This document shows, one piece after another, positions 32,955-50,844 of a DNA stretch of 50,844 nucleotides. Position 1 is the stretch's first letter. Each line of letters begins with the position of its first letter. Location: positions 1 to 50,844 of the forward strand of contig JAUQOW010000003.1 of assembly GCA_030550675.1 (NCBI GenBank), written 5' to 3'. The DNA comes from Chloroflexota bacterium (GTDB lineage: Bacteria; Chloroflexota; Chloroflexia; Chloroflexales; Roseiflexaceae). Position numbers and translations under genes: made by a program. The notes beneath the pieces are model-generated. The model did no database searches. It was not told the origin of the DNA and worked only from the letters and a program-made list of their open reading frames with translations.

Positions 32955-33041
32955 CCCGTTGCAGGCGTTGTCCGCCTGGTTGAATAGTGACATTGATGTC
33001 GATTGAACATATGTCTCTGGCCCATGAGAGGGAGGTGGAGC

Positions 33042-34559
33042 ATGCTGTCGCCCATACCCAGAATTGCCGCCGGAGCGCTGGCAGTCGTCCTCCTGATAGG
33101 CGGCGCACTGATTGCATACAGTCGCACGGCAACGCCATTGACGGCAGAGGCGTCGACCGAGAGCGCAGCGCCGCCAGTTGCCGCCTCGGCGACGCAACTA
33201 ATCGTTGCAAACGGCATCGTGGCGCCTGCCAGCTATGTTGATCTGCGTTTTGATACAGGCGGAAGGGTGCGTGAGGTGTTGGTGCGCGAAGGCGATGCGG
33301 TCAACGCTGGCGATCCACTGGCGCGCCTGGATACGCGCGAACTGGAACTGCGCATCGCTCAGGCGCGCGCTCACCTGGCGGCGGCGCAGGCGAATTATGA
33401 ACTGCTCATGAGCGCCGCTGCGCCTGCCGACATTCAGCGCGCGCAGGCGAACGTGGCGCGCGCACAGGCGCGATTGCGAGAAGTAAGCGGCGCCGTGACC
33501 CCCCACGCCAGAGCAGCGGCGCAGGCGCGGCTCGATGCAGCGCGCGCCGCGCTCGCGCGTCTGGAAGCAGGACCGAATCCAGCGGAAGTGAGTGCGCTGC
33601 GCGCCGAACTGCGCCAGGCGGAAGCTGATCTCCAGGCGACCCGTGATCGCCTGTCGCTCGAAAAGACGACCCTGCGATTGCAGATGGAACAGGCAGCCAA
33701 CCTGCTGCGAGACCGCCAGACCGAATACGCCCGCATTCGCGACGAAAATCAGGCGCGCTCTGAACCGCTGACCGCCGAACAACGCACCCGAGAAATCAGC
33801 GCGCGACTGGCAATGGACAATGCTGAGAAAGCGCTCGAGCAGGCGCGGGTCGCGTATGAAGCCGCGCTCCAGGCGGAAAAAAGCGGCATCGCTGCCGCCG
33901 AAGCTCGCGTGGCGGCAGTCAGGGCGCGTCTTGAGCGCATACTGGCGGGTCCTGACCCGGATCAACTCGCTGCGGCGCGCGCCGCTGTCGCGCAAGCGGA
34001 GGATGACCTGGCGCGACTCCAGGGTGCGCAGCGCATTGGCGCAATTGAGGCAGCCCGCGCAGATGTTGCGGTTGCTGAAGCTGAACTGGAGCGATTGCTG
34101 GCAGGCGTACGACCGGCAGAAGCTGCCGCGGCGCGTGCGCGGGTTGAGGAAGCGCAGGCGGCGCTGGAACAGGCGGAACTGGCGCTCGAACGCGCGGTTC
34201 TGCGCGCGCCGATCGCAGGCGTCATCGCATCGCTCAATATCAAAGTCGGTGAAGTGGCCGATCCGCAACTGGTTGCGGTACGCCTGGCGGATACGCGCAC
34301 CTGGCGCATTGAAACCACCAACCTGAGCGAACTGAGCGTCGCGCGCCTGCAAGAAGGCGATCCTGCGATCATTCGCCTGAATTCACTGCCAGACCTCGCC
34401 ATTCCTGGCAAGGTGACCGGCATCAGACCGCTGGGAACCAGTCAGGATGGAGACGTGACGCTGTACACCGTCTTCATTACCCCGGATCGTGTGGATGAAC
34501 GTTTGCGCTGGAATATGACGGCGCAGGTGCAGATCACGCCGCAGCTGGTCAATCAATGA
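33042..34559 (+). CDS. HlyD-family membrane fusion protein
   Basis: N-terminal TM, biotinyl-lipoyl-like V REVLVREGDAVNAGDPLARLD, long coiled coil, LRAPIAGVIASLNIKVGE. Confidence 0.9.
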   Translation: MLSPIPRIAAGALAVVLLIGGALIAYSRTATPLTAEASTESAAPPVAASATQLIVANGIVAPASYVDLRFDTGGRVREVLVREGDAVNAGDPLARLDTRELELRIAQARAHLAAAQANYELLMSAAAPADIQRAQANVARAQARLREVSGAVTPHARAAAQARLDAARAALARLEAGPNPAEVSALRAELRQAEADLQATRDRLSLEKTTLRLQMEQAANLLRDRQTEYARIRDENQARSEPLTAEQRTREISARLAMDNAEKALEQARVAYEAALQAEKSGIAAAEARVAAVRARLERILAGPDPDQLAAARAAVAQAEDDLARLQGAQRIGAIEAARADVAVAEAELERLLAGVRPAEAAAARARVEEAQAALEQAELALERAVLRAPIAGVIASLNIKVGEVADPQLVAVRLADTRTWRIETTNLSELSVARLQEGDPAIIRLNSLPDLAIPGKVTGIRPLGTSQDGDVTLYTVFITPDRVDERLRWNMTAQVQITPQLVNQ

Positions 34560-34569
34560 AGGTAAGCAA

Positions 34570-37221
34570 ATGAACGCGATCCCAGGAATTAGAGGACGCT
34601 TCGTCAGCATCGTGCTGCTGATCGCGGCAATGACCGCGTGCGGAGCGGAAAGCGCCACCGCGCCATCGGTCAGGTTGCAGACGACCGGCGTCTCAACCAT
34701 TGCGCCATCAACGCCGGTTGCCGCATCGCCGGTCGCAACGCCGACCGCTAACCAGGCAACGTCGACTGAGACGTCCACTGATGCGGCGACCGGAATGACA
34801 TCCCTGCGCACAAGGGATGGGCTGGCGCTCCTGTTCGACAGTCGGGAGAACAGGTTCGTGCGCATCGATATTCAGCAGCAAACGTTTCCGCTGAAGCCGG
34901 GCGAGAGCATTGCGGTGCATCTCTTCGATCCGCAGGGGAACACGATGCTCGATCCCCGCAATGCATCGGTCATACGCTCGGAGCAGGTCGCTGATGCTCT
35001 CGTGATCACGCGCGAAAGTCGCTCCTCCGCTCTTCAGGTCGTTGAGACATGGACGGAACGTCCGAATCGCATCGATCTGGCGACCACCATTACGAATACC
35101 GATCCATCGACGCCTTCTCGCGCTATCGAAGCATGCCTGCAAATACCCATCAATCTTATCGGCAAATATTGGCACCACCACCTTGATGATCGCGAAATGA
35201 TCGTAGAACGACGAGAACCGTACAAGACGGTCCTTCAAAGATTGATAGATATCGGATCGTTTGGTGACGGCACATTTCATAAAAAAACAGATCTTGATAT
35301 CAATTTGAATGGCATCAATCTTATTAGCGATGATAATATCGGTCTGGCGCTTGCAATCAACCCGGATCAGCCAGCGGCATACTATGTTCGTTACGATACG
35401 CAACGTCGTTCGTATGACGCCTGTTTCCACCTCGGCATCTACAACGAGCATATTCGCTTCAAGAACACGGTGTCCTTTGCGCTTTCGCTCTTTGTTCCGG
35501 ATGAACCGTCCTGGGGATTGCGTTCCGCGTATGCGAAATACGTTGACATATATCCACAGGCGCATACCGGTAAGTTGCCGCGCAAAACCACTATGGTCGT
35601 GCTGGAGGAGTATAGCTACCACGTCTTTCCCAACCCGCTCGACTACCGGATTGGCGCTGTATGGGGGCGGTACAAGGCGCAGAACCGGCGGTTCGGCGTT
35701 GACGACCTGGTCTACATCTGGCCCCACGGCTACTACGACCGGGGGATGCGGTTGAAAGTCTCTCCTGCACCTGGAGGAAGCGACCCGACCTGGGAAACAG
35801 ATATTGCCGCATGTCTCGCTCTGTACAGGGACGTCGACCAGGGGCGACAGCCGTTTGCTGAAACATGCACCGGATCGTATCCATTTGCGACCTGCATCCG
35901 ACAACGAAACCGCGGGCAGATCTATGGACCAGTGCTCGAACGTGAACGGGGCAGCGGCTGGCGGAGCGTTGAGGCGTATCAGATGACTGTCAGCAATGGT
36001 CCCAACTTCCTGATGGGCAAATTTCGCCTGCCCGCTCCATTTGAAGCGTCGCTGTTGCAAGACGCCAACGGACGCTGGCGCGACTCTATCAGTTACGCCT
36101 CGATGATCACCGAGGTGTTCTGGGAGCCGGGAGTTCGCCGCTGCATTTTCGATGGCATCAATCCCGATCCCGGCATTGATGTGATGCCATCGAACGAACC
36201 GCAGGCTATTGCTCCCACGATTGTGCGTAATTTTGGCGAATTGAACCTGGAGGTGGTCAAACGCGCCAATGGACTCTACGGATCGGACTACCTCGATACG
36301 CATCCCGAAGAAGGCATAAACCTCTACCACGGCGTCGCTGTTGATACTGTCGGGGTTTATTTGCGCCCGGATTTCAACCCGCGCGCGCTGCGCACAGCCT
36401 CGCTGCCGCTCAGTTACGACCGCGCAACCGGACGGGTGGTGGCGCTCGAACATCTGACGACGCTGGGATTTCTACGCGCATTGCGCGCCTCGTTGCCCGA
36501 CGATGCGCCGATTGCGACGAGCGGCCCGCCGATCAGCGGGATTTTATACCAGGAATCGGATTACATTGTGGAAGAATTCGTCAAAATCGAACGCGATGGG
36601 CGATTGGTCGATGAGTTTTATGACGAAACACTGGCGAACAAGGTGCGTTTGATCAACCGGATACGGATGGGGGCCAATCAACGATCTGTCACTTTTACGA
36701 TTCCTTTCGAGCGCGCAACGAATGAAAACGAGTTTTTAGATCAAATTAATCGCTATCTTCCGCTTTATACCGCAAAAGGCATCTACATCAATATTGACAG
36801 GTATGGTCCAAAGCAGGATCGTTATTTATGGAGTGATCCACCCGGTTCACGTGCAATGCAGGCGTACCAGCATCATCTTCACATTGTTCATGCATTGAAC
36901 AGCGCTGGCTGGCGACCTGTTCCATACGCATCAGCTGTGAATGGCGTCCTTATCGAGCGCTTCGGCAGAGATTATCTAACGATGTACAACACGGCTGAGA
37001 ATAAAATAACGACGACGCTGACCATTAACTGGCGCGCGATTGGATTTAGCGCCGCACCGCATCAAATCACAGACGCAGAAACCGGCGCTGAACTTCCATT
37101 CAGCGTTTCAGGCGATTATCTCGTCCTTGATCCTCTTTCAATCGGCGGTCATAAGGCTCGCATCGTCAGAATAGAGCCGCCCCGCCGGACGGTGCTGCTG
37201 CCAATGGTTGTTGCAATGTAG
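34570..37221 (+). CDS. Large secreted lipoprotein of unknown family, possibly glycosidase-like
   Basis: Signal sequence with lipobox-like MTAC; T/P/A-rich linker; C-terminal beta-sandwich-like region. Confidence 0.65.
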   Translation: MNAIPGIRGRFVSIVLLIAAMTACGAESATAPSVRLQTTGVSTIAPSTPVAASPVATPTANQATSTETSTDAATGMTSLRTRDGLALLFDSRENRFVRIDIQQQTFPLKPGESIAVHLFDPQGNTMLDPRNASVIRSEQVADALVITRESRSSALQVVETWTERPNRIDLATTITNTDPSTPSRAIEACLQIPINLIGKYWHHHLDDREMIVERREPYKTVLQRLIDIGSFGDGTFHKKTDLDINLNGINLISDDNIGLALAINPDQPAAYYVRYDTQRRSYDACFHLGIYNEHIRFKNTVSFALSLFVPDEPSWGLRSAYAKYVDIYPQAHTGKLPRKTTMVVLEEYSYHVFPNPLDYRIGAVWGRYKAQNRRFGVDDLVYIWPHGYYDRGMRLKVSPAPGGSDPTWETDIAACLALYRDVDQGRQPFAETCTGSYPFATCIRQRNRGQIYGPVLERERGSGWRSVEAYQMTVSNGPNFLMGKFRLPAPFEASLLQDANGRWRDSISYASMITEVFWEPGVRRCIFDGINPDPGIDVMPSNEPQAIAPTIVRNFGELNLEVVKRANGLYGSDYLDTHPEEGINLYHGVAVDTVGVYLRPDFNPRALRTASLPLSYDRATGRVVALEHLTTLGFLRALRASLPDDAPIATSGPPISGILYQESDYIVEEFVKIERDGRLVDEFYDETLANKVRLINRIRMGANQRSVTFTIPFERATNENEFLDQINRYLPLYTAKGIYINIDRYGPKQDRYLWSDPPGSRAMQAYQHHLHIVHALNSAGWRPVPYASAVNGVLIERFGRDYLTMYNTAENKITTTLTINWRAIGFSAAPHQITDAETGAELPFSVSGDYLVLDPLSIGGHKARIVRIEPPRRTVLLPMVVAM

Positions 37222-37250
37222 GCGCATTGTGTACAGCAGAGCGGACCTGT

Positions 37251-38585
37251 ATGGCGTTGAAAGATCACAACCAGCCGTTCGTGCGTCTCTCGTTGCGCGC
37301 CAACTTTTCCTGGACGTTCGTCGGGAATGTGGTGTATGCCGCGTGTCAGTGGGGCATGCTCATGGCGCTGGCGAAACTCAGTTCGCCGGGAATGGTTGGC
37401 ATATTCGCACTGGGTCTGGCGATTACCGGACCAATGTTCATGTTCGCAAACCTGCACCTGCGCACCATCCAGGCGACCGATGCGCGGCAGGAGTATCAGT
37501 TTCGCGATTACCTCGGCGTTCGCCTGGCGACGACGATGCTGGCGCTGCTGGCAATTGCGGGAATCACGCGGGCTGTCGGGTATCCATGGGAAACGGGCGC
37601 GGTCATTATTGCGGTCGGATGCGCCAAGGCGTTTGAGTCGATCAGCGACATTTTTTACGGTCTGCTCCAACGTCTTGAGCGGATGGACCGAATCGCCGTA
37701 GGGATGATGCTGAAAGGCATGGCGTCGTTGCTCGCGCTCGCGGCTGGCGTCTATCTCAGCGGGTCGGTGTTTTGGGGCGTCGTCGGGATGGCTGGCGCGT
37801 GGGCAGCAGTGCTGGCGCTGTACGACATCCCTCAAGGTTTGTACGCATTGCGACATTCTCCGGCATCGCAGGCGCCGGCAGCGCTCTACGCACGCGTGGC
37901 GGTCGCGGCGCGACTGGCGTGGATGGCGCTGCCGCTGGGAATCGGGATCCTGCTGGTCTCGCTCAGCACGGCGATACCGCGCTACTTCGTCGAGCGCATA
38001 TTGGGCGCCGAGAGCCTGGGCATTTTCGCCGCCATCGCGTATATCCAGGCGGCTGGCACAACGGTGATCAGCGCGCTCGCCGCCGCTGCCAATCCGCGTC
38101 TGGCGCAACACTATGCCCGCAACGACGCCCACGCTTTCCGCGCACTGCTGTACCGACTCATCGCCATCGCCCTGGCGCTGGGCAGCGCTGGCGCGCTGGT
38201 CGCCTGGCTGATCGGGAGCTGGATCCTGACTCTGATCTATCGACCGGAGTACGGTGCGTACAACCACATCTTCGTGCTGGTTATGGTTGCGGCTGGCATC
38301 GGCTATGTCGGCTGGTTCGTCGGCGATGCCATGACGGCGGTGCGACGCTTACGCGCGCAAGCGCTGCTCTTCCTGACGATGACCATCGCCACCATCGGCG
38401 CGTGCGCCTGGCTGATCCCGCCCTTCGGGCTGACCGGCGCAGCGCTGGCGACGATGGTTACCTCGGTGATCCAGGCGGCTGGCGGATTGCTGATCGTCGA
38501 GCACGCACTGCGCAAGCCGCTGCCAGTCCCGTCAACGATGGAGTCAGGAGAAACGGCGCTGACCAGGAGTGTTCTGTCCAACTGA
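37251..38585 (+). CDS. Polysaccharide flippase (Wzx/MATE-like)
   Basis: Multiple TM helices; LRANFSWTFVGNVVYAACQWGMLMALAKLSSPGMVGIFALGLAI. Confidence 0.9.
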   Translation: MALKDHNQPFVRLSLRANFSWTFVGNVVYAACQWGMLMALAKLSSPGMVGIFALGLAITGPMFMFANLHLRTIQATDARQEYQFRDYLGVRLATTMLALLAIAGITRAVGYPWETGAVIIAVGCAKAFESISDIFYGLLQRLERMDRIAVGMMLKGMASLLALAAGVYLSGSVFWGVVGMAGAWAAVLALYDIPQGLYALRHSPASQAPAALYARVAVAARLAWMALPLGIGILLVSLSTAIPRYFVERILGAESLGIFAAIAYIQAAGTTVISALAAAANPRLAQHYARNDAHAFRALLYRLIAIALALGSAGALVAWLIGSWILTLIYRPEYGAYNHIFVLVMVAAGIGYVGWFVGDAMTAVRRLRAQALLFLTMTIATIGACAWLIPPFGLTGAALATMVTSVIQAAGGLLIVEHALRKPLPVPSTMESGETALTRSVLSN

Positions 38586-38598
38586 TGAGATGGTGAGA

Positions 38599-40116
38599 AT
38601 GCCCATGGCTGTGACAATGCACAACCCGGTATCGCAGCGATACGCTGCGAGAGCGTCAGGACGATCAATCGAGAGCCTGGTCATTTCCGTGTACGTTTGT
38701 GCGCTGACGCTGACCATTTTTGTAGCGCTGTCGGATCAGTTTTTGCATTGGTTCATCGCGCCCGTGGCGTTGTCGGGCATCCTCATCGGCATCGATGCTG
38801 TGGATTGGGTGCGAGGACGGGTTAACCTGTTCGATCCAATCGGTCTTTCCGGCGCATTCGGCTGGTTTTTCTTCTTCCTTGCGCCGCTGTTGACCGTCGC
38901 AACCGGATACTGGCTGATCTATGTCGAGCCGCCTGTTGAACGGCGAGAATGGCTGGGCTGGATGGCGATCCTGAATCTTCTGGGGTTAATGATTTATCGC
39001 GGTGTGCGACTGATCTACTTCCAGCGCGAACGTCGGATCACTACGCTCTGGATGATTGATTATAAACGATTTTTCGTCCTGGGCGCCGTGGCGCTCGTGG
39101 TGACCGCTATTCTCCACACCTACGTCTATCTCAGCATGGGAGGGATTCGAGGGTTTATTGAAGAAGCGACTGATCAAAGCGCAATTCTTCTCAGTCTCCG
39201 TGGTTATGGTCAGATTTTTATGATTTCGGAGAGTTTCCCGATCATCGCGCTAATGATGTTCATCTTGTACGTACAGCGCCAGAAGTCGCCAGTCTATCGT
39301 TCATGGCTGGTTCTTGGAATTGTGCTGTTGATTTTCTTCGCATTGAAACTCTACTTCGGCGGATTGCGCGGCAGCCGAAATAACACTATCTGGGGATTAT
39401 TCTGGGCGGTTGGGCTGATCCATTTCTGGATTCGTCCAATTACACGCAAGATTGTGCTGATCGGATTGAGTTTTCTGATCGCATTTATGTATATCTACGG
39501 ATTTTACAAGGATGCCGGTCTTGAAGTCTTGCGGCTGATCGAGGACCCGGCTGCGCGTGTCGAACTGGAGCGCGAAACTCGTCGCGATCTTCCGACGCTC
39601 CTGCTCGGTGATTTGGGACGGAGCGATGTGCAGGCATTCCTGCTCTATCGCCTGGCGCGTCCAGACAGCGATTATGAGTATGCCCTGGGGCGCACCTATG
39701 TTGCCGCATTTGCAGTACTCATCCCACGCTCAATCATCGAGCGCATGCCGAGCAAGACATTCGAAGGCACTGAAGCGTTGTACGGCAAAGGTTCGTACAT
39801 TCCGGTCGATTTTGAGGCATCGCAGCTCTACGGTCTTGCCGGTGAAGCAATGCTCAATTTTGGCTTTCTTGCTGCGCCGGTGTCGTTCATCATCTTTGGG
39901 CTGGCTAATTGCTCGGTGCGACGCTGGCTTTCCGGGCTGACGCCGGGCGATGCGCGGTTGCTGTTCTACCCCTTCCTTTCGCTCTTCTGCTTCTACATGC
40001 TCGCGTGCGATCTGGAGAACATCGTGTTTGACGTGATCAAGAACATCGCTGTGCCGCTTGGGATTGCCGGACTGTCGTTATCGTCAATCTCGCGCCTGCC
40101 CGCTTCCGATCAGTAG
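38599..40116 (+). CDS. O-antigen/EPS polymerase-like membrane protein (Wzy)
   Basis: Multi-TM; position between flippase and GTs; GGLRGSRNNTIWGLFW. Confidence 0.7.
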   Translation: MPMAVTMHNPVSQRYAARASGRSIESLVISVYVCALTLTIFVALSDQFLHWFIAPVALSGILIGIDAVDWVRGRVNLFDPIGLSGAFGWFFFFLAPLLTVATGYWLIYVEPPVERREWLGWMAILNLLGLMIYRGVRLIYFQRERRITTLWMIDYKRFFVLGAVALVVTAILHTYVYLSMGGIRGFIEEATDQSAILLSLRGYGQIFMISESFPIIALMMFILYVQRQKSPVYRSWLVLGIVLLIFFALKLYFGGLRGSRNNTIWGLFWAVGLIHFWIRPITRKIVLIGLSFLIAFMYIYGFYKDAGLEVLRLIEDPAARVELERETRRDLPTLLLGDLGRSDVQAFLLYRLARPDSDYEYALGRTYVAAFAVLIPRSIIERMPSKTFEGTEALYGKGSYIPVDFEASQLYGLAGEAMLNFGFLAAPVSFIIFGLANCSVRRWLSGLTPGDARLLFYPFLSLFCFYMLACDLENIVFDVIKNIAVPLGIAGLSLSSISRLPASDQ

Positions 40117-40136
40117 TTTGAGATCAGGGGGAATGT

Positions 40137-41366
40137 ATGCGTGTTGTCGTGTCGCTCGAACATCACTTTGATCGCACTCCGGACGGCGTGGTGTGGACGC
40201 AGACGCAGTTCCCATACCGCTTCTGGCAGCGCTATCTGGAGGTTTTCGATCAGGTGCGCGTTGTGGCGCGGGTGCGCAACGCGCCACGCGCGGCGCCCGA
40301 CTGGCAGCGCGCTGATGGTCGGCGCGTCTCCTTTGCTGCAATTCCGGAGTATGTGGGTCCGCGTCAGTATCTGATGAGGTTGCCGCAGATTCTGGCTGTG
40401 ACGCGCGGCGTAATCGCCGCAGAGGACGCGGTCATTCTGCGCGTCAGTTCGCAAATCGCCAGTCTGCTCTATCCTTCCCTCCGACGCGAAAGGCGCCCAT
40501 ATGGCGTTGAGGTGGTCACCGATCCATACGGCGTTTTTGCGCCCGGCGCAGTCCGGCATCCGCTGCGCCCATTCTTTCGCTGGCTCTTCCCGCTCCAGTT
40601 GCGGCGACAGTGCGCTGATGCCGCAGCCGCATGCTACGTCACCGAACATGCCTTGCAGCAAAGGTATCCGTGCCCGTCTTTTTCGGTGGCGGCGTCAGAT
40701 GTCGAGTTGCCCGATGAGGCGATCGTTGCGGCGCCGCGTCCGCTGCGCACCCCGACGCCTCCTCTTCGCCTTGCCTTTGTTGGCTCACTGGGACAGTGGT
40801 ACAAAGCGCCGGATGTCTTGCTCGACGCGGTTGCGCTGTGTGTGCGCGACGGCATGGATCTGACGCTGACGATGCTCGGCGATGGCAAACATCGCCCGGA
40901 ACTGGAAGAGCGCGCCCGCACCCTGGGCATCGCCGACCGGGTTATCTTCCGCGGGCAGGTGACGGCTGGCGCGGCGGTGCGCGACGAACTTGACGCGGCG
41001 GATCTTTTCGTCCTGCCATCGCGTCAGGAAGGCATGCCGCGCGCCATGATCGAGGCGATGGCGCGCGCGCTCCCGTGTATTGGCTCGACGGTCGGCGGCA
41101 TTCCCGAACTGCTGCCGCCGGAAGACCTCGTGCCTCCAGGCGATGCAGCAGCGCTGGCGAAGGCTATCCGCGAGATGGTCTCCAGCCCGGAGCGGATGGC
41201 GCGCGCCTCGGCGCGCAACCTCGAACGCGCGCAGGCGTTCGCCGAATCCCGGCTGCGTGAACGACGCCTGGCGTTCTTCCAGCATGTGCGTGAGCAGACC
41301 GAAGCATGGGTCGCTTCCCGCCGCGCATCAACCGGCTGGCAGGCGCGGCGTCGCACCTTGCCGTGA
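40137..41366 (+). CDS. Glycosyltransferase family 4
   Basis: LAFVGSLGQWYKAPDVLLDA, LFVLPSRQEGMPRAMIEAMARALPCIGSTVGGIPELL. Confidence 0.93.
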   Translation: MRVVVSLEHHFDRTPDGVVWTQTQFPYRFWQRYLEVFDQVRVVARVRNAPRAAPDWQRADGRRVSFAAIPEYVGPRQYLMRLPQILAVTRGVIAAEDAVILRVSSQIASLLYPSLRRERRPYGVEVVTDPYGVFAPGAVRHPLRPFFRWLFPLQLRRQCADAAAACYVTEHALQQRYPCPSFSVAASDVELPDEAIVAAPRPLRTPTPPLRLAFVGSLGQWYKAPDVLLDAVALCVRDGMDLTLTMLGDGKHRPELEERARTLGIADRVIFRGQVTAGAAVRDELDAADLFVLPSRQEGMPRAMIEAMARALPCIGSTVGGIPELLPPEDLVPPGDAAALAKAIREMVSSPERMARASARNLERAQAFAESRLRERRLAFFQHVREQTEAWVASRRASTGWQARRRTLP

Positions 41367-41401
41367 TGAGAGGGTTCAGATTCATAGTATCAGGTGACCT
41401 T

Positions 41402-42568
41402 ATGCCACGTTTGTTAATTGTCACAACGGTGCCAGCGACAATCTCGGCGTTTCTGCTGCCGTTTGCGCGGCACTACCGCGCCTGCGGCTGGCGGGTCGAC
41501 GCCATGACGCGCGATGAGGCAATCGATCCCGAAACCCGCGCTGCGTTTGATCATATCTGGACCCTGCCCTGGTCCCGCCAGCCGTTCAGCCCGGTGAATC
41601 TGATCGGCGCGCCGCAGCGCATCCGGCGCATCGTCGAGGGTGAGCGGTACGACATCGTGCACGTGCATACTGCGGTCGCAGCGTTTGTCACGCGCTACGC
41701 GCTGCGCGATATTCGGCGGCGCACCGGGGTTCGGGTGATCTACACGGCGCACGGCTTCAACTTCGACAAGGGCATGCCGTGGCATAAGAATCTCGTCTTC
41801 CTGACGCTGGAAAAAGTTGCCAGCGCCTGGATGGACTACCAGGTGGTGATCAACCGCACCGACGAACAGACAGCCATTCGCTATCGTCTCGCACCGCCAG
41901 AGCGCGTCTGGTATATGCCTGGCATTGGCGTCGATCTGAGCCATTACTCCCCTGATAACGTCGCGGCGACTGAGGTGGCGGCGCTGCGCCAGAGCATGGG
42001 CGTTGCGCCCGACGAGGCGCTCTTCCTGATGATTGCTGAGTTCATCCCGCGCAAGCGCCACGCTGATGCGTTAAGAGCATTTGCGCGCCTGGAACGGAAT
42101 GATGCGCACCTGGCGCTGGCAGGAGACGGACCGCTCTTGGAACCGATGCGTCGCCTCGCGTCTGACCTCGGCATCGCGGAACGAACCCACTTCCTTGGCT
42201 ACCGACGCGACATTCCGGCGTTGCTGCGAGCGGCGACGGCCCTCATCCTGCCGTCGCAGCAGGAGGGGTTGCCGCGCAGCATTCTGGAAGCGCTGGCGCT
42301 TGGCGTGCCAGTGATCGGCGCCGATATTCGCGGCGTGCGCGATCTCCTGGAAGAAGGCGCCGGTCTGCTTGTGCCGGTTGGCGATGTGGCGGGTCTCACG
42401 CGCGCAATGCGCCGGATGATCGATGACCGGGAGGCGGCGCGCGCAATGGCAGCGCGCGGATTGGAGCAGGCGAAGCGGTACGACTTGCAGCGCATTATTG
42501 CGCTGCACGATCAGTTGTATGCGGCGGCGTTGAGCGAGCGACATGCCCTGGCGCCAACAACAATCTAG
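41402..42568 (+). CDS. Glycosyltransferase family 4
   Basis: VHVHTAVAAFVTRYAL, LILPSQQEGLPRSILEALALGVPVIGADIRGVRDLLE. Confidence 0.94.
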   Translation: MPRLLIVTTVPATISAFLLPFARHYRACGWRVDAMTRDEAIDPETRAAFDHIWTLPWSRQPFSPVNLIGAPQRIRRIVEGERYDIVHVHTAVAAFVTRYALRDIRRRTGVRVIYTAHGFNFDKGMPWHKNLVFLTLEKVASAWMDYQVVINRTDEQTAIRYRLAPPERVWYMPGIGVDLSHYSPDNVAATEVAALRQSMGVAPDEALFLMIAEFIPRKRHADALRAFARLERNDAHLALAGDGPLLEPMRRLASDLGIAERTHFLGYRRDIPALLRAATALILPSQQEGLPRSILEALALGVPVIGADIRGVRDLLEEGAGLLVPVGDVAGLTRAMRRMIDDREAARAMAARGLEQAKRYDLQRIIALHDQLYAAALSERHALAPTTI

Positions 42569-42581
42569 AGGAGGACCGCTC

Positions 42582-43244
42582 ATGTATCGCAGATACGGCA
42601 AACGCGCATTTGACCTGATTCTGGTTGTTCCGGCGCTTATCCTGCTGGCGCCGTTCATGGCGATCCTCGCATTGTTGATCCGGATCAAAATGGGATCGCC
42701 AGTATTGTTCACCCAGGAACGCGCTGGAAAGGATGGGAAACCGTTTCGACTCTATAAGTTCCGCAGCATGACCGACGCGCGCGATGCGCAGGGCAACCTG
42801 CTGCCCGATGAGCAGCGCCTCACGCCCTTCGGCAAATTCCTGCGCAGCACGAGCCTGGACGAATTGCCGCAGTTGTTCAACGTCCTGCGCGGCGATCTCA
42901 GCCTGGTCGGACCACGACCGCTGCTGATGCGATACATCGACCGGTATACGCCGGAGCAGCGTCGCCGTCTCGATGTGCTGCCCGGCATCACATGCGAAGC
43001 GGTGCTCCACGGGCGCAGCAATCAGACGTGGGACGAAATCCTGGCGCACGATGTCTGGTATGTCGATCACATCAGTCTCTGGACCGATCTGCGCATCCTG
43101 TTCGGCACAGTGCGCGTGGTGCTGACGCGCGAAGGGGTCGAGCGCAGCGCTAACGGTCAGGTTCCCGAATTCCTTGGCGTGCTGGCTCAAACACACAGGA
43201 ATGCATCTGAAGCGCACCCTGTCGGTCAGCCGGAAGGATGGTGA
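42582..43244 (+). CDS. Initiating sugar transferase (polyprenyl-phosphate sugar-phosphotransferase)
   Basis: KRAFDLILVVPALILLAPFMAILALLIRIKMGSPVLFTQERAGKDGKPFRLYKFRSM, SLVGPRPLL. Confidence 0.95.
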   Translation: MYRRYGKRAFDLILVVPALILLAPFMAILALLIRIKMGSPVLFTQERAGKDGKPFRLYKFRSMTDARDAQGNLLPDEQRLTPFGKFLRSTSLDELPQLFNVLRGDLSLVGPRPLLMRYIDRYTPEQRRRLDVLPGITCEAVLHGRSNQTWDEILAHDVWYVDHISLWTDLRILFGTVRVVLTREGVERSANGQVPEFLGVLAQTHRNASEAHPVGQPEGW

Positions 43245-43247
43245 GGT

Positions 43248-44111
43248 ATGCGTATCACGCTCATCCGAACCGCCCGTGAAGCGGAGTCTGTATTCGAAGC
43301 GGTTGAACGCCTGTTTCACGACACGTTCGGCTATCGACCGGGCAAGATGGCATGGTCGCAATTCTATTTCGTCAACCCGTATGGCGATGCCATCGTGGCT
43401 CTGGGCTGGAATAACGATCGCCTGGTCGGGCATCACGCGCTTGTGCCGCATGTGCTGACGGATAGCAGCGGAAAGGTCTATCGCTACTACCTGGCAATGA
43501 GTCTCATGCTGCACCCGGATTATCGAGGGTTTCCCGCTTTTTATCAACTGGTAGCGACAACAACCGAGGCGGCGCGGGCTGAGGGCGCGCCATTCATCCT
43601 GGGATTTCCAAACAAGAACTCATATGCGCTGTTTCAGCGCGTCTTCGGGTGGAGAACGCTGATTGAAACTGAACTGTATAACTGGCATCCGGCGGCGTCA
43701 GCCGATCCGCCGCAAGAAATCGCGGCGCTGCCGCATCTGCGCCTGACTGATGAGGCGGGACCGCCATGCGATGAGACGTACCGGCGGTGGCGCAGTCTGT
43801 CATGTCCGTACCACGCTGAACTGGTGAATGGACGGCTCGCCGTCATCTACAAAATCGAGCGCGACGATATGCTCACTGTGCTCGATGCCCTGACTGACCG
43901 CCCAGAGGAAACGGCGAACGATCTGGGGGCATTGGCGACGCACGCCGGCGCACGGCGGGTGCGCATGACTGGCGTGCACGCCCGGATGATCGGTCTCGAT
44001 CCGGCGACGATGGAGCGCCATACTGATTACCGCCTGCGCATGTGCTACGCGCCGCTGACGGGTCACCCGCCGTCGATGCGCTTCAGTTTGCTCTTGAGCG
44101 ATGTGTTTTGA
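43248..44111 (+). CDS. GNAT-family N-acetyltransferase
   Basis: LHPDYRGFPAFYQLVATTTEAARAEGAPFILGFPNKNSYALFQRVFGW. Confidence 0.8.
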   Translation: MRITLIRTAREAESVFEAVERLFHDTFGYRPGKMAWSQFYFVNPYGDAIVALGWNNDRLVGHHALVPHVLTDSSGKVYRYYLAMSLMLHPDYRGFPAFYQLVATTTEAARAEGAPFILGFPNKNSYALFQRVFGWRTLIETELYNWHPAASADPPQEIAALPHLRLTDEAGPPCDETYRRWRSLSCPYHAELVNGRLAVIYKIERDDMLTVLDALTDRPEETANDLGALATHAGARRVRMTGVHARMIGLDPATMERHTDYRLRMCYAPLTGHPPSMRFSLLLSDVF

Positions 44112-44131
44112 ACGCCGGAAGGAGTCCTGGC

Positions 44132-44797
44132 ATGAACGTACTGATTGTAGCCGCGCATCCTGATGACGAAGTGCTGGGGTGCGGCGGGGTCACGGCGCGT
44201 CATGTCGCGCAGGGCGACGCAGTCTACGCGCTGGTGGTCACGCGCGGCGCTCCGGAGATCTTTTCGCCGGAACAGGATGAAGAAGATCGACACGACTCGC
44301 GCACAGCGCATCAGACGCTCGGCGGTGCGGGGATCTTCTTCCTCGACTTCCCCGCGCCGAGGTTGGATGTAGTGCCAGGGCACGAACTGGCGGATGCGAT
44401 CCGCGAGGCGATCTTCTCCGTGCGCGCCGATGTGGTCTATACCCCTTTTGGCGGCGATCTGCACGTGGATCACAAAGCTGTCTACCTGGCAACGCTGGTG
44501 GCGGCGCGCCCGATCAACCGCTGCCCCGTGCGGCGGCTGCTCTGTTACGAAACCCTCTCGGAGACCGATTGGGCGTCGCCGATTGAGGAGGGCGCCTTTA
44601 AACCAACCGTGTTCGTGGACATCGGTGATGTTCTGGAACGCAAACTCCGGGCGCTTTCCTGCTTTCGCAACGAACTCAAACAGCCGCCCCACCCCCGCTC
44701 ACTGCGCGCCGTAGAAGCGCTGGCGCGGGTGCGCGGCGCCACCGCCGGTCTGATGGCGGCAGAAGCGTTCATGCTGGTTCGCGAAATTCTCAACTGA
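44132..44797 (+). CDS. PIG-L/LmbE-family de-N-acetylase
   Basis: VLIVAAHPDDEVLGCGG, DLHVDHKAVYLA. Confidence 0.94.
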   Translation: MNVLIVAAHPDDEVLGCGGVTARHVAQGDAVYALVVTRGAPEIFSPEQDEEDRHDSRTAHQTLGGAGIFFLDFPAPRLDVVPGHELADAIREAIFSVRADVVYTPFGGDLHVDHKAVYLATLVAARPINRCPVRRLLCYETLSETDWASPIEEGAFKPTVFVDIGDVLERKLRALSCFRNELKQPPHPRSLRAVEALARVRGATAGLMAAEAFMLVREILN

Positions 44798-44812
44798 AGG
44801 AGGATAACGGGT

Positions 44813-45148
44813 ATGCAGATTACCACATCAGACATTGCATCCCAGATTCGCGGCTACATCACGCACAACCTCCTGTTTGGCGACGAGGGCTTCGTTTACA
44901 GCGACGACGACTCGTTCCTCGAGCGGGGAATTGTGGACTCGCTCGGCGTCATCGAACTGGTCTCGTTCATTGAGACGCAATTTGGCATCAGCGTCGCCGA
45001 TCACGAACTGACGCCCGAACACTTCGATTCGGTGAAGAAATTATCGGAGTACGTGGTGCGCAAACTTGCGAACGGCGCGCAGGAAGCCGTCGCTGGCGGC
45101 GCTCCGCTCTCCTCAATCGCCCTGGGAGAAACCTATGCTCGTGCATGA
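44813..45148 (+). CDS. Acyl carrier protein
   Basis: FLERGIVDSLGVIELVSFIETQFGISV with DSL phosphopantetheine site. Confidence 0.92.
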   Translation: MQITTSDIASQIRGYITHNLLFGDEGFVYSDDDSFLERGIVDSLGVIELVSFIETQFGISVADHELTPEHFDSVKKLSEYVVRKLANGAQEAVAGGAPLSSIALGETYARA

Positions 45149-46682
45149 TTTTCTGATCAACAGCGCCGCGCGCCTGCCAGATAAAGTGGCGCTCGTCTGC
45201 GACGGCAAACGGCTGACCTATCGCGATCTCGATCAGATGACGAATCGCCTGGCGCATGCGCTCGTCGAGCACGGCATTCGGCGCGGCGACCGGGTGGCGA
45301 TCTTTGCGCCCAACTCGGTCGAGGCGGTCGTCGGGATTTTCGCCGTGCTCAAGGCGGGGGGCGTTTTCGTGGTTATCAACCATACGACCAAGCAGGACAA
45401 ACTGACCGCTATTCTGAACAACTGCCGCGCCTCAGCAATCATTGCCGATGCGCAGATCAGGGACGTGCAACTGTCGGCGCTGTTGCACGACGTTCCTTCG
45501 CTGCGGATTGGCGTGCTGTCCAATCAGCGCGCCGAAACCCGTCTGGCGCATCCCCGCTTCATCGACTTTGATGAGGCGCAGGCGCAGTACGACCCGACGC
45601 CTCTGCCGCGCGTCAATATCGATCTCGATCTGGCGTGCCTGATCTACACCTCGGGCAGCACCGGCGAGCCGAAGGGCGTCATGAGTGATCACAGCAACGT
45701 CGTCTTCGTCAGCGGCTCGATCATTGAATACCTGCAAAATGTCGAAGATGACGTCGTGATCAACATGCTGCCGCTCTCCTTCGATTACGGTCTCTATCAG
45801 TTGCTGATGACGATGCGTTTCGGCGGCAGGCTGGCGCTTGAGCGCTCGTTTGCGTATCCGGCGGCAATCCTCAAGCACGTTGAAGAAGAGCGGGTCACCG
45901 GTTTTCCTGGCGTGCCGACGATCTATGCGATGCTCCTGCAAATGGACCTGAGCCAGTACGATCTGTCGAGCATCCGGTATCTGACGAACACCGCCGCTGC
46001 GCTGCCGCCAAGCCACGTACTGGAACTGCGCCGGAAGTTCCCGTGGGCGCGCCTCTACTCGATGTATGGTCTGACCGAAACCAAGCGCACCCTGTATCTG
46101 CCGCCGGAAGAGCTGGAACGGCGCCCCGGATCGGTGGGCATTGCCATTCCCGGCACCGAAGTCTGGCTGGAAGACGAACATGGCAACCGGCTGGGACCCG
46201 GCGAGGTCGGCGAGTTGGTGGTGCGCGGACGGCACGTGATGCGCGGATACTGGGAGGCGCCAGAAGCGACGGCGCAGCGGTACCGTCCTGGTCCACTGCC
46301 GGGAGAGCGCGTCTGCTACACCGGCGACCTGTTCCGTATGGACGAGGAAGGGTTCCTGTACTTCGTCGGGCGCAAGGACGACATTATCAAGAGTCGCGGC
46401 GAGAAAGTCGCTCCCAAAGAAGTCGAGAACGTGATCTACGAGCTGCCGGGGGTTGCAGCGGTGGCGGTGGTCGGCGTGCCCGACCCGATCCTGGGGCAGG
46501 CGATCAAGGCGTTTGTGGTCACGAAGAATCCTGATCTGACCGAAAAGCAGATTCTGGCGCACTGCCGCGCGCGGTTGGAAGATTTCATGGTCCCGCGGTA
46601 TGTAGAGTTCCGCGACGAATTGCCGGTGAACGCATCAGGCAAAATCGCCCGACGGGAACTGGCAGGAAAGGCGGAGAGGTGA
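45135..46682 (+). CDS. AMP-dependent acyl/aminoacyl ligase
   Basis: LIYTSGSTGEPKGVM, YGLTETKRT, YFVGRKDDIIKSRGEKVAPKEVE, NASGKIARREL. Confidence 0.94.
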   Translation: MLVHDFLINSAARLPDKVALVCDGKRLTYRDLDQMTNRLAHALVEHGIRRGDRVAIFAPNSVEAVVGIFAVLKAGGVFVVINHTTKQDKLTAILNNCRASAIIADAQIRDVQLSALLHDVPSLRIGVLSNQRAETRLAHPRFIDFDEAQAQYDPTPLPRVNIDLDLACLIYTSGSTGEPKGVMSDHSNVVFVSGSIIEYLQNVEDDVVINMLPLSFDYGLYQLLMTMRFGGRLALERSFAYPAAILKHVEEERVTGFPGVPTIYAMLLQMDLSQYDLSSIRYLTNTAAALPPSHVLELRRKFPWARLYSMYGLTETKRTLYLPPEELERRPGSVGIAIPGTEVWLEDEHGNRLGPGEVGELVVRGRHVMRGYWEAPEATAQRYRPGPLPGERVCYTGDLFRMDEEGFLYFVGRKDDIIKSRGEKVAPKEVENVIYELPGVAAVAVVGVPDPILGQAIKAFVVTKNPDLTEKQILAHCRARLEDFMVPRYVEFRDELPVNASGKIARRELAGKAER

Positions 46683-46702
46683 AGACGGCGGCATGGCAAA
46701 AT

Positions 46703-46780
46703 AGGGACGTCGCAATGCACCGTCCTTACCTGTGGCGCCCCTGCCCCGCCGCAGAGACATTGCAGTGTAATGTCCTTACC
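46703..46780. repeat. Pair of degenerate palindromic units about 50 bp apart
   Basis: GGACGTCGCAATGCACCGTCCTTACC and GAGACATTGCAGTGTAATGTCCTTACC. Confidence 0.55.
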
Positions 46781-46853
46781 CATAGCGACGGTTCCACCCA
46801 CGGCAACGGCTCTGCCAGACCACGCGAATCGTTGCAAGATCAGGAGTCTTTCA

Positions 46854-48854
46854 ATGTGCGGAATTGTGGGCATTGTCAATATCCAGGGCGATTACCCGAT
46901 CACTAAAGACGCGCTGCGCCAGATGCTGGCGCTGATCCGCCATCGCGGTCCCGATCAGTTCGGCATCTATCTCGACGACCGGGCCGGGCTGGGGAACGCA
47001 CGACTTAGAATTATCGACCTGAGCGGCGGTCAGCAACCGATTGCCAGCGAAGACGAGCGATACTGGATCGTTTTCAACGGCGAGATTTTCAACTATGTCG
47101 AACTGCGCCCCGACCTCGAGGCGCGCGGGCATCGCTTCACAACCAATACTGATACTGAGGTGATCCTGCACCTGTTCGAGGAATACGGTCCGGGGTGCCT
47201 GTCGCACCTCAACGGACAATTTGCGATTGCTATCTGGGACGCGCACGAACAGACGCTGTTCCTGGCGCGCGACCGGGTTGGGATTCTTCCGCTATTCTAC
47301 ACGCTTGCCGATGGAACGCTGATCTTCGCGTCGGAGATCAAGGCGATCCTGGCTGATCCGCGCGTGCGCCGTGCAATCGACCCGGTGGCGCTGGAGCAGA
47401 TCTTCACCTTCTGGGGAACCCTCTCGCCGCGGACCGTGTTTCGCGACATTGTTGAACTGCCGCCGGGTCATTACTTGATCGCACGAGACGGAACGATTGA
47501 TATTCAGCCGTACTGGCGGTTGGAGTTTGGTGCGCCGGAGCAGGAACGCAGCGAGGAGGAGTATGTTGAGGAGTTGCGTGATCTGCTGATCGACGCGACC
47601 ACAATCCGTCTGCGCGCGGATGTGCCGGTTGGCGCGTATCTCAGCGGCGGGCTGGACTCCTCAACGGTTGCTGCAATTGTGCGCCGGTACGCCAGTAACC
47701 ACCTCGACACCTTTTCAATCGCCTTTAGCGATCCAGAATTTGATGAGAGTCCGTTCCAGCGCCAGATGGCGCAATATCTCGGCACTAGCCATCAGGTGGC
47801 GTATGTGACGCACGCCGATATTGGGCGCGTCTTCCCCGACGTGATCTGGCATACGGAAATGCCAATCCTGCGCACATCGCCCGCGCCGCTCTTCATTCTC
47901 TCACAACTGGTGCACGATCATTCCTATCGCGTGGTGTTGACCGGCGAAGGCGCTGATGAGTTTCTGGCGGGTTACGATATTTTCAAGGAAGCGAAGGTGC
48001 GACGGTTCTGGGCGCGTCAACCGTCGTCGCGCCTGCGACCGCTGCTCTTCCGCCGTCTCTACCCCTGGATCGTCGGATTTGGAGGCAGCAATATCGCGTA
48101 TCTGGCAGCGTTCTTCGGCGAAGGACTTATGGATACCGCCGCACCGGATTACTCGCACCGTCCGCGCTGGCGCACCACCAGCCGCACCCGTCGTTTCTTC
48201 AGCGATGAGGTGCGCCAGGCTGCCGACGCGCTGGCGCAGCCGACCGATCGAGCGCCGCACTACCCGGAAGCCTTCAGTTCGTGGGACCCGCTCCACCAGG
48301 CGCAGTACCTGGAAATCATCACCTTCCTCTCGCCGTACCTCCTCTCGGCGCAGGGGGACCGGATGATCATGGCGCACGCGGTCGAGGGGCGCTTTCCCTT
48401 CCTCGACCATCGCGTGATCGAGTTTGCCAATCGCCTGCCGCCGCGCCTGAAGCTACGCGGTCTAACGGAGAAATACATCCTGCGCCAGGTCAGTCGCGTC
48501 TGGCTGCCAGACGCCATCTGGCAGCGCCCCAAGCAACCGTATCGCGCGCCGATTCATCGGAGTTTCTTCAATGACGCACGACTGGACTACGTTCAGCATT
48601 TCCTGTCGCCAGACCGCATCCAGGCGAACGGCTTGTTCAAGCCGACGGCAGTGGCGCACCTGAAGGAAAAAGCGCAATCCGGCGCGCGTCTGAGCGAAAC
48701 CGAAGATATGGCGCTGGTGGGCATTCTCTCGACCCAACTGCTGGTCGAGCGGTTTATTCGCGATTTTCGTCTGCCGCCGCCGCTCTCCGACGCAGATAAT
48801 GTCAAAGTCTGCATCAGAGGCGGCATTGCTGTGGGAGGGGGCTATGGGGTTTGA
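46854..48854 (+). CDS. asnB: Glutamine-hydrolysing asparagine synthase-like amidotransferase
   Basis: MCGIVGIVN with Cys2 nucleophile; AYLSGGLDSSTVAAIV. Confidence 0.95.
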   Translation: MCGIVGIVNIQGDYPITKDALRQMLALIRHRGPDQFGIYLDDRAGLGNARLRIIDLSGGQQPIASEDERYWIVFNGEIFNYVELRPDLEARGHRFTTNTDTEVILHLFEEYGPGCLSHLNGQFAIAIWDAHEQTLFLARDRVGILPLFYTLADGTLIFASEIKAILADPRVRRAIDPVALEQIFTFWGTLSPRTVFRDIVELPPGHYLIARDGTIDIQPYWRLEFGAPEQERSEEEYVEELRDLLIDATTIRLRADVPVGAYLSGGLDSSTVAAIVRRYASNHLDTFSIAFSDPEFDESPFQRQMAQYLGTSHQVAYVTHADIGRVFPDVIWHTEMPILRTSPAPLFILSQLVHDHSYRVVLTGEGADEFLAGYDIFKEAKVRRFWARQPSSRLRPLLFRRLYPWIVGFGGSNIAYLAAFFGEGLMDTAAPDYSHRPRWRTTSRTRRFFSDEVRQAADALAQPTDRAPHYPEAFSSWDPLHQAQYLEIITFLSPYLLSAQGDRMIMAHAVEGRFPFLDHRVIEFANRLPPRLKLRGLTEKYILRQVSRVWLPDAIWQRPKQPYRAPIHRSFFNDARLDYVQHFLSPDRIQANGLFKPTAVAHLKEKAQSGARLSETEDMALVGILSTQLLVERFIRDFRLPPPLSDADNVKVCIRGGIAVGGGYGV

Positions 48855-49848
48855 CACGCGCATCTTGCAGATCGATGTTGCTGCCGAAACAGAACGGATT
48901 GTCAACTGGTTGCAATATCACGTTATCAGAACCCTGCATCGTCAAGGCGTGGCGCTGGGGATCAGCGGCGGCATCGACTCATCAGTGGCGCTGGCGCTCT
49001 GCGTTCGCGCCTTCGGACCGCAGCGCGTCGTGGCGCTGATGATGCCGGAGCGCGACTCCGACCCGCAGACGGTGCATCTGTCGGAGATGGTCGCCCGGCA
49101 CTACGGCGTCGAGCCGATCCTGGAAGACATCACGCCGGTGCTCGAAGGGTTCGGCTGCTACCGCCGCCGTGACGAAGCCGTGCGACGAATCTTTCCAGAG
49201 TACGACGCCGCGCTGGGCTACAAGATGCGCATTGTGCTTCCGCAGAACCTGCTCGATGCAGATACGCTGAATGTCTTCTCGCTGGAAATCGTCACGCCAG
49301 ATGGCGAGGTGAAGAGCAAACGCCTGCCGCCGCGCGAATACGCCCAAATCGTCGCCGCCTCGAATTTCAAGCAGCGGACGCGCATGGCAATGGTGTACTA
49401 CCACGCCGAACTGCGCAACTACGCGGTTGTCGGCACGCCGAACAAGAACGAACATGACCAGGGATTCTTTGTGAAGTACGGCGACGGCGGGGCTGATCTG
49501 CGCCCGATTGTGCATCTGTACAAAACGCAGATCTACCAACTGGCGCGCTATCTCGACGTACCAGAGGTCATCCAGCGTCGTCCGCCCACATCTGACACCT
49601 ACAGCGCACCGACAACCCAGCAGGAGTTCTTCTTCCGGCTGCCCTTTGAAACGATGGATCTGCTCTGGTACGCACAAGAGCATAATGTACCTGTAGCGGA
49701 TGTGGCGGAGGCGCTGAATCTGACGCCAGTCCAGGTGCAGCGCGCCTTCAACGATTTTGCCCGCAAACGACGCACCACGGCGTATCTGCGCGTGCCGCCG
49801 CTGGAACTCCGCGCCGAGGAGCACGCCGCGATTACGGTGACCCGGTAG
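48844..49848 (+). CDS. NAD synthase-like PP-loop ATPase/amidotransferase (no glutaminase domain)
   Basis: LGISGGIDSSVALAL, VVGTPNKNEHDQGFFVKYGDGGADLRPIVHLYKTQIYQLARYL. Confidence 0.85.
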   Translation: MGFDTRILQIDVAAETERIVNWLQYHVIRTLHRQGVALGISGGIDSSVALALCVRAFGPQRVVALMMPERDSDPQTVHLSEMVARHYGVEPILEDITPVLEGFGCYRRRDEAVRRIFPEYDAALGYKMRIVLPQNLLDADTLNVFSLEIVTPDGEVKSKRLPPREYAQIVAASNFKQRTRMAMVYYHAELRNYAVVGTPNKNEHDQGFFVKYGDGGADLRPIVHLYKTQIYQLARYLDVPEVIQRRPPTSDTYSAPTTQQEFFFRLPFETMDLLWYAQEHNVPVADVAEALNLTPVQVQRAFNDFARKRRTTAYLRVPPLELRAEEHAAITVTR

Positions 49849-49883
49849 CGCTGCGCAATGCGGCAGAAACGGAGGAGCACAGA

Positions 49884-50844
49884 ATGTACACAACGGTATA
49901 TACCGCCGATGACCGGGAAGCATGGGAGGAGGCTCTGCCAGCGCGCGTCAGCGTCTTCGGCAGCGTCGGATACGCCCGGATCGTCCAGCGTCATACCGGC
50001 TACCTGGCGCGATTGTTCGTGGCGGCGTCGGATGAAGGGCGAATCGTCTATCCGTTTTTTCTTCGTCCAGTAAGCAACCTGCCCTTCGCCAGACAATATG
50101 AGGCGTGCTGGGATACGCTCACCCCGGAGTACACCGGTCCGATAGGACTCGGAAACGTGACGCCCGACCTGCAGCACACCTTTATCGAAGGCTGGCGCCA
50201 GTTCTGCAGCGAACAGCGAGTCGTGGCGGAGTTTATGCATCTCCATCCCTCTGACCGCTGCAACGGAATGCTGCGCCTCGATAACGTGCGCTATGATCGG
50301 GATATTGTGGTGATTGACCTGACGCTTTCGGAAGAGGATCTCTGGCGCCGATCCCTTGGAGACCAGACCCGTTACAGTATTCGTCGGGCGCAGCGAGAGG
50401 GAGTTCGGGTGTTTACAGCGCAAAACGCCGACGATGTGCGCGAATTTCACCGCATCTATACGAAGACGATGAATCGGCATCGCGCCCATGCACGTTACTT
50501 TTTTTCGTTTGAGTATTTCTGGTCATTCTGCGAGGAGTTGCCAGAGCATGCGACCTTCCTGCTCGCTGAATATTCCGGTCATATCGTGGCCGCAGCGCTC
50601 TACCTCCATGATGACCTGGAGATGTACGATTTTCTGGCAGGCTTAGACATCGACTATCAGCGCAGTCGGGCCGCGCATGCCGTTGTTTATGCGGCGATCC
50701 AGTGGGGTCAGCGTCACGGAAAGCGCCGTCTCATTCTGGGCGGCGGCTATCGACCGAACGACGGTGTCTTCCGATTCAAAGCGAGCTTTTCACCGCTGCG
50801 TTTGCGGTTCTCAACCTATCGACACATACGCAATCCGACGTTGT
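49884..50844 (+). CDS. FemAB/GNAT-like aminoacyl/acyltransferase, truncated at window edge
   Basis: Open frame from ATG 49884 to the end (absent from the ORF track because it has no stop): SLGDQTRYSIRRAQREGVRVF, ATFLLAEYSGHIVAAALYLHDDLEMYDFLAG, LGGGYRPNDGVFRFKASFSP. Confidence 0.85.
   Translation, partial: MYTTVYTADDREAWEEALPARVSVFGSVGYARIVQRHTGYLARLFVAASDEGRIVYPFFLRPVSNLPFARQYEACWDTLTPEYTGPIGLGNVTPDLQHTFIEGWRQFCSEQRVVAEFMHLHPSDRCNGMLRLDNVRYDRDIVVIDLTLSEEDLWRRSLGDQTRYSIRRAQREGVRVFTAQNADDVREFHRIYTKTMNRHRAHARYFFSFEYFWSFCEELPEHATFLLAEYSGHIVAAALYLHDDLEMYDFLAGLDIDYQRSRAAHAVVYAAIQWGQRHGKRRLILGGGYRPNDGVFRFKASFSPLRLRFSTYRHIRNPTL

Follow-up and report, generated by a model that had tools for sequence, protein, structure and literature searches.

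A conserved ACP-ligase-AsnB-NadE gene quartet in a Roseiflexaceae polysaccharide cluster and its candidate role in making a carrier-bound, amidated aspartate-like group

Why should a bacterium from hot springs carry, in a gene cluster for a sugar polymer, genes that resemble those for an acyl carrier protein (ACP), an acyl-CoA ligase, an asparagine synthetase and an NAD synthetase? The question is raised by the window analysed here, a stretch of 50,844 nucleotides from a Chloroflexota bacterium of the Roseiflexaceae (GenBank JAUQOW010000003.1), which is a whole contig (C203, ending at position 50844) of a draft genome of 5.06 Mb that is 99.8% complete. Profile searches identified eight genes between positions 42582 and 50844, all on the + strand, encoding in order an initiating sugar transferase, a GNAT protein, an LmbE-type de-N-acetylase, the ACP, the ligase, an AsnB-type amidotransferase, a NadE-like enzyme (NADE) and a FemAB-type transferase. 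A preliminary description of the window had treated these as one modular system for modifying exopolysaccharide (EPS), and its observations on the eight genes, their order and strand, the intact DSL site of the ACP and the overlaps of 14 bp between ACP and ligase (45135-45148) and 11 bp between AsnB and NADE (48844-48854) were all confirmed.

Conservation of the quartet

Relatives of NADE were sought in one genome per prokaryotic species, which yielded 437, and the best 80 of the 437 loci were read. All four core genes were present in 48 of the 53 loci with enough flanking DNA (ACP in 52, AsnB in 51 and ligase in 50), with apparent gaps that were due to open reading frame calling or clustering being settled by direct profile matches. 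An AsnB gene was found to flank 75/85 of the module NadE genes, compared with 0/21 ordinary NadE loci in a same-phylum control. The quartet spans more than ten phyla, including Chloroflexota, Acidobacteriota, Verrucomicrobiota, Cyanobacteriota, Elusimicrobiota, Calditrichota and Bacteroidota, and because of this breadth, the 48/53 loci and the contrast with the control, its linkage is not a matter of chance. Some of the loci come from bins of metagenome-assembled genomes (MAGs), the assignment of which is possibly wrong; cultured Geothrix, Nostoc and Bellilinea are also included.

The conserved unit consists of ACP, ligase, AsnB and NADE only. Among more than 80 loci, relatives of LmbE and of the window GNAT were confined to three Roseiflexus loci (L043, L053 and L054), and those of FemAB to the same three plus L068 and L106. 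The modular character of the system was thus upheld, but not the membership of LmbE, GNAT and FemAB, and of the co-occurrence expected across neighbourhoods that of the quartet was found across phyla whereas LmbE and FemAB were mostly absent. The quartet also occurs outside EPS clusters, for example on pSymB of Sinorhizobium meliloti. Within the Chloroflexota 9 of 301 genomes carried a NadE-like protein over the family cut-off, a patchy distribution that fits horizontal spread. On a quick NADE tree with many weak branches the type of ligase (D, S or C) switches at least eight times, suggesting that ligases have been exchanged between modules. At L044/L091 and L127 a single ACP-AsnB-NADE set is accompanied by two ligases of differing pocket type.

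Ligase pocket and amidating enzymes

Over the ligase pocket the best PDB match was VinN (3wv4, 3wvn), the 3-methylaspartate:ACP ligase of vicenistatin synthesis, which has VinL as its ACP partner and in which, on our reading of the structure, R331 presumably binds the free carboxylate. The features reviewed for VinN are D230, which serves the amine, F231, S299, K330, R331 and a shortened beta13-beta14 loop (PMC11253843). An ungapped alignment places D217, Y218, T286, K317 and R318 of the window ligase at these positions (5/5 matched), and the shortened loop and a cognate standalone ACP are present as well. The pocket residues are kept in 50/50 D-type ligases if Thr may be replaced by Ser and Phe by Tyr. 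FlvN, of the same class as VinN, loads Asp (PMC11284099). The pocket suggests that ligases of the window type activate an aspartate-like amino-dicarboxylate, which narrows the load from the "acyl or aminoacyl" group first proposed. The S-type ligases (eight, plus one G variant) have lost the equivalents of D230 and S299 and kept the Arg and the short loop; a free carboxylate would then be the feature common to D- and S-type substrates and a possible target of AsnB and NADE.

The window AsnB begins with MCGI at 46854, so that the glutaminase Cys2 is present, and its SGGLDSS PP-loop is intact; Cys2 is likewise intact in most AsnB proteins (71/77). The AlphaFold model of NADE (pLDDT 92) has the NadE fold, with a TM score of 0.84 to 2e18. 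Alignment revealed ~56 extra residues between the conserved halves, before NFKQRTRM, and a changed P2 loop. A separate NadE-family gene, of 277-291 or 580-707 amino acids, occurs in 9/9 module genomes, which rules out NADE as the sole NAD synthetase. With these differences and the separate gene, NADE probably acts on a different carboxylate. This suggests that many nadE annotations in the NADE family are wrong.

Relatives of NADE were also found on 116 plasmid records, mostly of Sinorhizobium. The pSymB locus of S. meliloti has the order asnB-ACP-ligase-nadE and a ligase with a D-type pocket. Its ACP carries a DST motif that is lacking from two other ACP-like genes of pSymB, beside which no ligase was found within the 3 kb examined, and because of this motif and the adjoining ligase the ACP is very probably SMb20651, co-transcribed with the ligase SMb20650. 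Acylation of holo-SMb20651 by SMb20650 has been reported in vivo, and this ligase is no substitute for the long-chain ligase FadD (PMC7232532); SMb20651 was called an ACP of unknown function in 2025 (PMC12391972). The reported acylation and the VinN-type pocket support the ligase and ACP as a loading pair, as had been proposed for the window, and a specific candidate role, aspartate-like loading followed by amidation, can be offered for SMb20651. A fatty acyl-CoA ligase is disfavoured both by the pocket and by the failure to complement fadD.

The Roseiflexus locus and neighbours elsewhere

The features of the window are collected in Table 1. The polysaccharide cluster is syntenic in a genome of the same genus, G163 (L051, L043), and the syntenic locus occurs also in named Roseiflexus MAGs. 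One protein of the cluster, of 883 amino acids (34570-37221), has no Pfam match and is kept in G163. In the close Roseiflexus relatives L043, L053 and L054 a full-length FemAB of 362-366 amino acids directly follows NADE, and after it come a DegT aminotransferase, a DUF218 protein and a CapD/WbpM-like dehydratase. To judge from their families, these genes would form a set for a 4-amino-4,6-dideoxy sugar, and FemAB is a candidate aminoacyl transferase in Roseiflexus.

Table 1. Core quartet, accessory genes and host cluster in the window
Feature	Position	Strand	Evidence
Initiating sugar-phosphate transferase (short phosphoglycosyl transferase, Bac_transf)	42582-43244	+	PF02397 2.9e-62
GNAT, Roseiflexus-specific accessory	43248-44111	+	PF13527 5e-7
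LmbE/PIG-L de-N-acetylase, Roseiflexus-specific accessory	44132-44797	+	PF02585 8e-23
ACP (core), standalone carrier, 111 amino acids	44813-45148	+	IVDSLG, phosphopantetheine Ser43; PF00550 26.1 bits, cut-off 20.8
Ligase (core), AMP-forming, amino-acid type	45135-46682	+	PF00501 1.4e-95, PF13193
AsnB (core), glutamine-hydrolysing amidotransferase	46854-48854	+	PF13537+PF00733; TIGR01536 529 bits, cut-off 267
NADE (core), NadE-like PP-loop enzyme, no glutaminase domain	48844-49848	+	PF02540; NF002048 510 bits, cut-off 313
FemAB/GNAT-type transferase, accessory, cut by contig end	49884->50844	+	PF02388 5e-18
Host polysaccharide cluster	31491-42568	+	Wzz/BY-kinase-like, HlyD-like, 883-amino-acid protein, flippase, polymerase-like, two GT4 glycosyltransferases

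In 85 loci, seven partner types were counted to a distance of 7 kb from NADE, among them hexapeptide transferases (28), SGNH-like proteins (23), Acyltransferase_3 (13), HemK-family methyltransferases (12) and nonribosomal peptide synthetase (NRPS) proteins with condensation, peptidyl carrier and thioesterase domains (C-PCP-TE; 8). Geothrix has the gene order ACP-ligase-AsnB-NadE-SGNH-HemK, and a HemK-like gene is also found near the quartet in rhizobia. The four HemK-family neighbours tested scored 132-159 bits against TIGR00536 (cut-off 115.5) and all fell below the cut-off of the PrmC-specific TIGR03534. HemK/PrmC enzymes methylate glutamine amide nitrogens, and neighbours of this type would therefore fit a carboxamide product. 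The preliminary description had AsnB and NADE amidating uronic or carboxyl groups. For uronic acids there is no indication: the conserved carboxylate-binding Arg of the ligase pockets and the HemK-type neighbours point instead to a carrier-bound acyl group.

The SGNH-like proteins (L103:11181-12053, L064:11000-11944 and 21 further loci) form an exported or membrane-anchored family with HxSxG...N...H motifs and no match in Pfam or NCBIfam; their AlphaFold model has a pLDDT of 86 and the best folds include the peptidoglycan O-acetyltransferase PatB and sialate O-acetylesterases. In cyanobacteria and others, C-PCP-TE proteins that have no adenylation domain stand beside the quartet (L103:1978-4554, L092:3413-6100, L126:3507-6116) and could draw on the module ligase. 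An ATP sulfurylase/adenosine phosphosulfate kinase fusion and sulfotransferases adjoin the module in some Anaerolineae (L113:11066-12820, L117:12093-12941), which suggests sulfated products from the same clusters, and in thermophilic Anaerolineae the module is adjoined by pairs of exported BNR-propeller proteins (L113:13913-18092, L132, L102).

Proposed pathway, alternatives and known systems

Four genes labelled asparagine synthase, NAD synthase, acyl-CoA ligase and ACP can thus be assembled into one predicted pathway, which would be present in cultured Geothrix, Nostoc, Bellilinea and Mesorhizobium and in the model symbiont S. meliloti. The reading that we prefer, and to which we give an even chance of being right, is that the quartet is a portable donor-making unit. 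To judge from the pocket, the substrate of the ligase would be an aspartate-like amino-dicarboxylic acid, activated at the carboxyl relative to which the amine is in the beta position and then loaded onto the ACP. AsnB and NADE would amidate the remaining carboxylate with glutamine-derived ammonia to give an isoasparaginyl-type group on the carrier, and a transferase specific to the locus, as the exchange of neighbours suggests, would pass the group to an acceptor. Amidation of the carrier-bound group would lead in Roseiflexus to decoration of the EPS; here the group is probably delivered onto an amino-sugar polymer, most likely by FemAB/GNAT to the amine of a 4-amino-dideoxy or LmbE-deacetylated sugar of the repeat. 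Elsewhere transfer might fall to Acyltransferase_3 and SGNH proteins or to NRPS C-PCP-TE proteins, and at some loci a HemK-family enzyme may add N-methylation of the amide. A wider proposal, that a horizontally spread "amide donor" unit places amidated and sometimes N-methylated aspartyl groups on glycans, lipids or peptides as an undescribed envelope decoration, is put forward tentatively.

Several observations weigh against the quartet as a donor-making unit and must be set beside it. At about one third of the loci, many of them on short contigs, the 7 kb range contains none of the seven partners counted. A VinN-like pocket predicts a class of substrate only, and ~13 ligases are of the C type, in which the pocket differs and the loop is longer. 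NADE keeps its PP-loop and the core NadE residues and could have true NAD synthetase activity. Two amidating enzymes are assigned to one free carboxylate, and one of them may use another carboxylate or join an amine. That the pSymB operon corresponds to SMb20650/SMb20651 is itself concluded from motif and neighbourhood.

Some of these points lend themselves to other explanations. With two ATP-dependent PP-loop enzymes and one apparent carboxylate, AsnB or NADE might form an amide with an amine, a lactam or, in the manner of the PP-loop enzyme QueC, which dehydrates an amide, a nitrile; the AsnB homologues 1jgt and 7ylz, of a kind that makes lactams or hydroxamates, are among the structure matches. 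The widespread retention of Cys2 speaks against such chemistry, as do the HemK-type neighbours, which suggest an amide N-H, and we regard it as distinctly improbable. A soluble product of the core, a small molecule such as an NRPS-like compound, a signal or an osmolyte, with the EPS location of the core being incidental in some lineages, seems unlikely. C-PCP-TE proteins do adjoin the module in eight loci, five of them cyanobacterial, and the S. meliloti operon adjoins metabolic and min genes, but at most loci the neighbours are polysaccharide genes, acyltransferases or exported SGNH proteins, and in Sinorhizobium a flippase and a HemK-like gene are close to the operon.

The way in which the genes are ordered and overlap, and their synteny among Roseiflexus loci, would suit a single eight-gene EPS cassette, in which LmbE frees an amine, ACP and ligase load an acyl group and AsnB and NADE amidate uronic acids; since elsewhere the core occurs without LmbE and GNAT but keeps AsnB and NADE, even where there is no EPS cluster, this must be considered very improbable. 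Taken at face value, the annotations would make AsnB and NADE a second pair of housekeeping enzymes, for asparagine and for NAD synthesis, next to a fatty acyl-CoA ligase. This is scarcely credible: the NCBI names and the conserved core NadE residues are countered by the second NAD synthetase of all nine module genomes, by the S. meliloti ligase failing to replace fadD (PMC7232532) and by the tight linkage of the quartet across phyla.

The portable donor-making unit can be compared with several described systems. Exosortase A (XrtA/PEP-CTERM) loci resemble the window in that homologues of the ligase and proteins of the AsnB and FemAB types accompany EPS genes. The module differs in its NadE-like enzyme, and the three window proteins are all below the XrtA cut-offs (TIGR03098 484/592, TIGR03108 459/817 and, with a truncated FemAB query, TIGR03019 33/260 bits). 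Family searches found exosortase PF09721 in 0/9 module genomes, the source genome included, and in one control genome, so that an exosortase link is ruled out for the nine genomes searched and the earlier view of a system without exosortase is borne out; PEP-CTERM PF07589 gave no match, in a search in which the model matched no control genome either. In searches of the literature, nothing relevant turned up on this combination of genes, on aspart-4-yl glycans linked to genes of this kind or on Roseiflexus EPS.

DltA/DltC work alike, in that an amino-acid ligase and a carrier feed an envelope transferase, but the window ACP is far below the DltC cut-offs (26.5/68 and 19.7/52 bits), AsnB and NADE are added and the pocket is that for a beta-amino acid. 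In systems of the OxyD type an AsnB homologue is proposed to amidate carrier-bound malonate; the combination of an AsnB homologue with a carrier-bound dicarboxylate would be shared, the module differing in its predicted aspartate-like substrate and its NadE-like partner. VinN/VinL and FlvN, with 3-methylaspartate or aspartate as substrate, share with the module the pocket residues, the short beta13-beta14 loop and the standalone ACP. Unlike their pathways, the module has AsnB and a NadE-like enzyme, has no polyketide synthase and lies in surface polysaccharide or other loci. No VinO-type pyridoxal phosphate (PLP) decarboxylase was found among the window proteins scanned or the neighbour clusters examined, and no TIGR03099 PLP decarboxylase exceeded the cut-off in the genome (best 205/478 bits). 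The S. meliloti operon has the same four genes in a tight set, ordered ASN-ACP-LIG-NADE; in the literature found, its ACP and ligase are known as a pair of unknown function and have not previously been tied to an aspartate-type pocket or to a module that extends across phyla.

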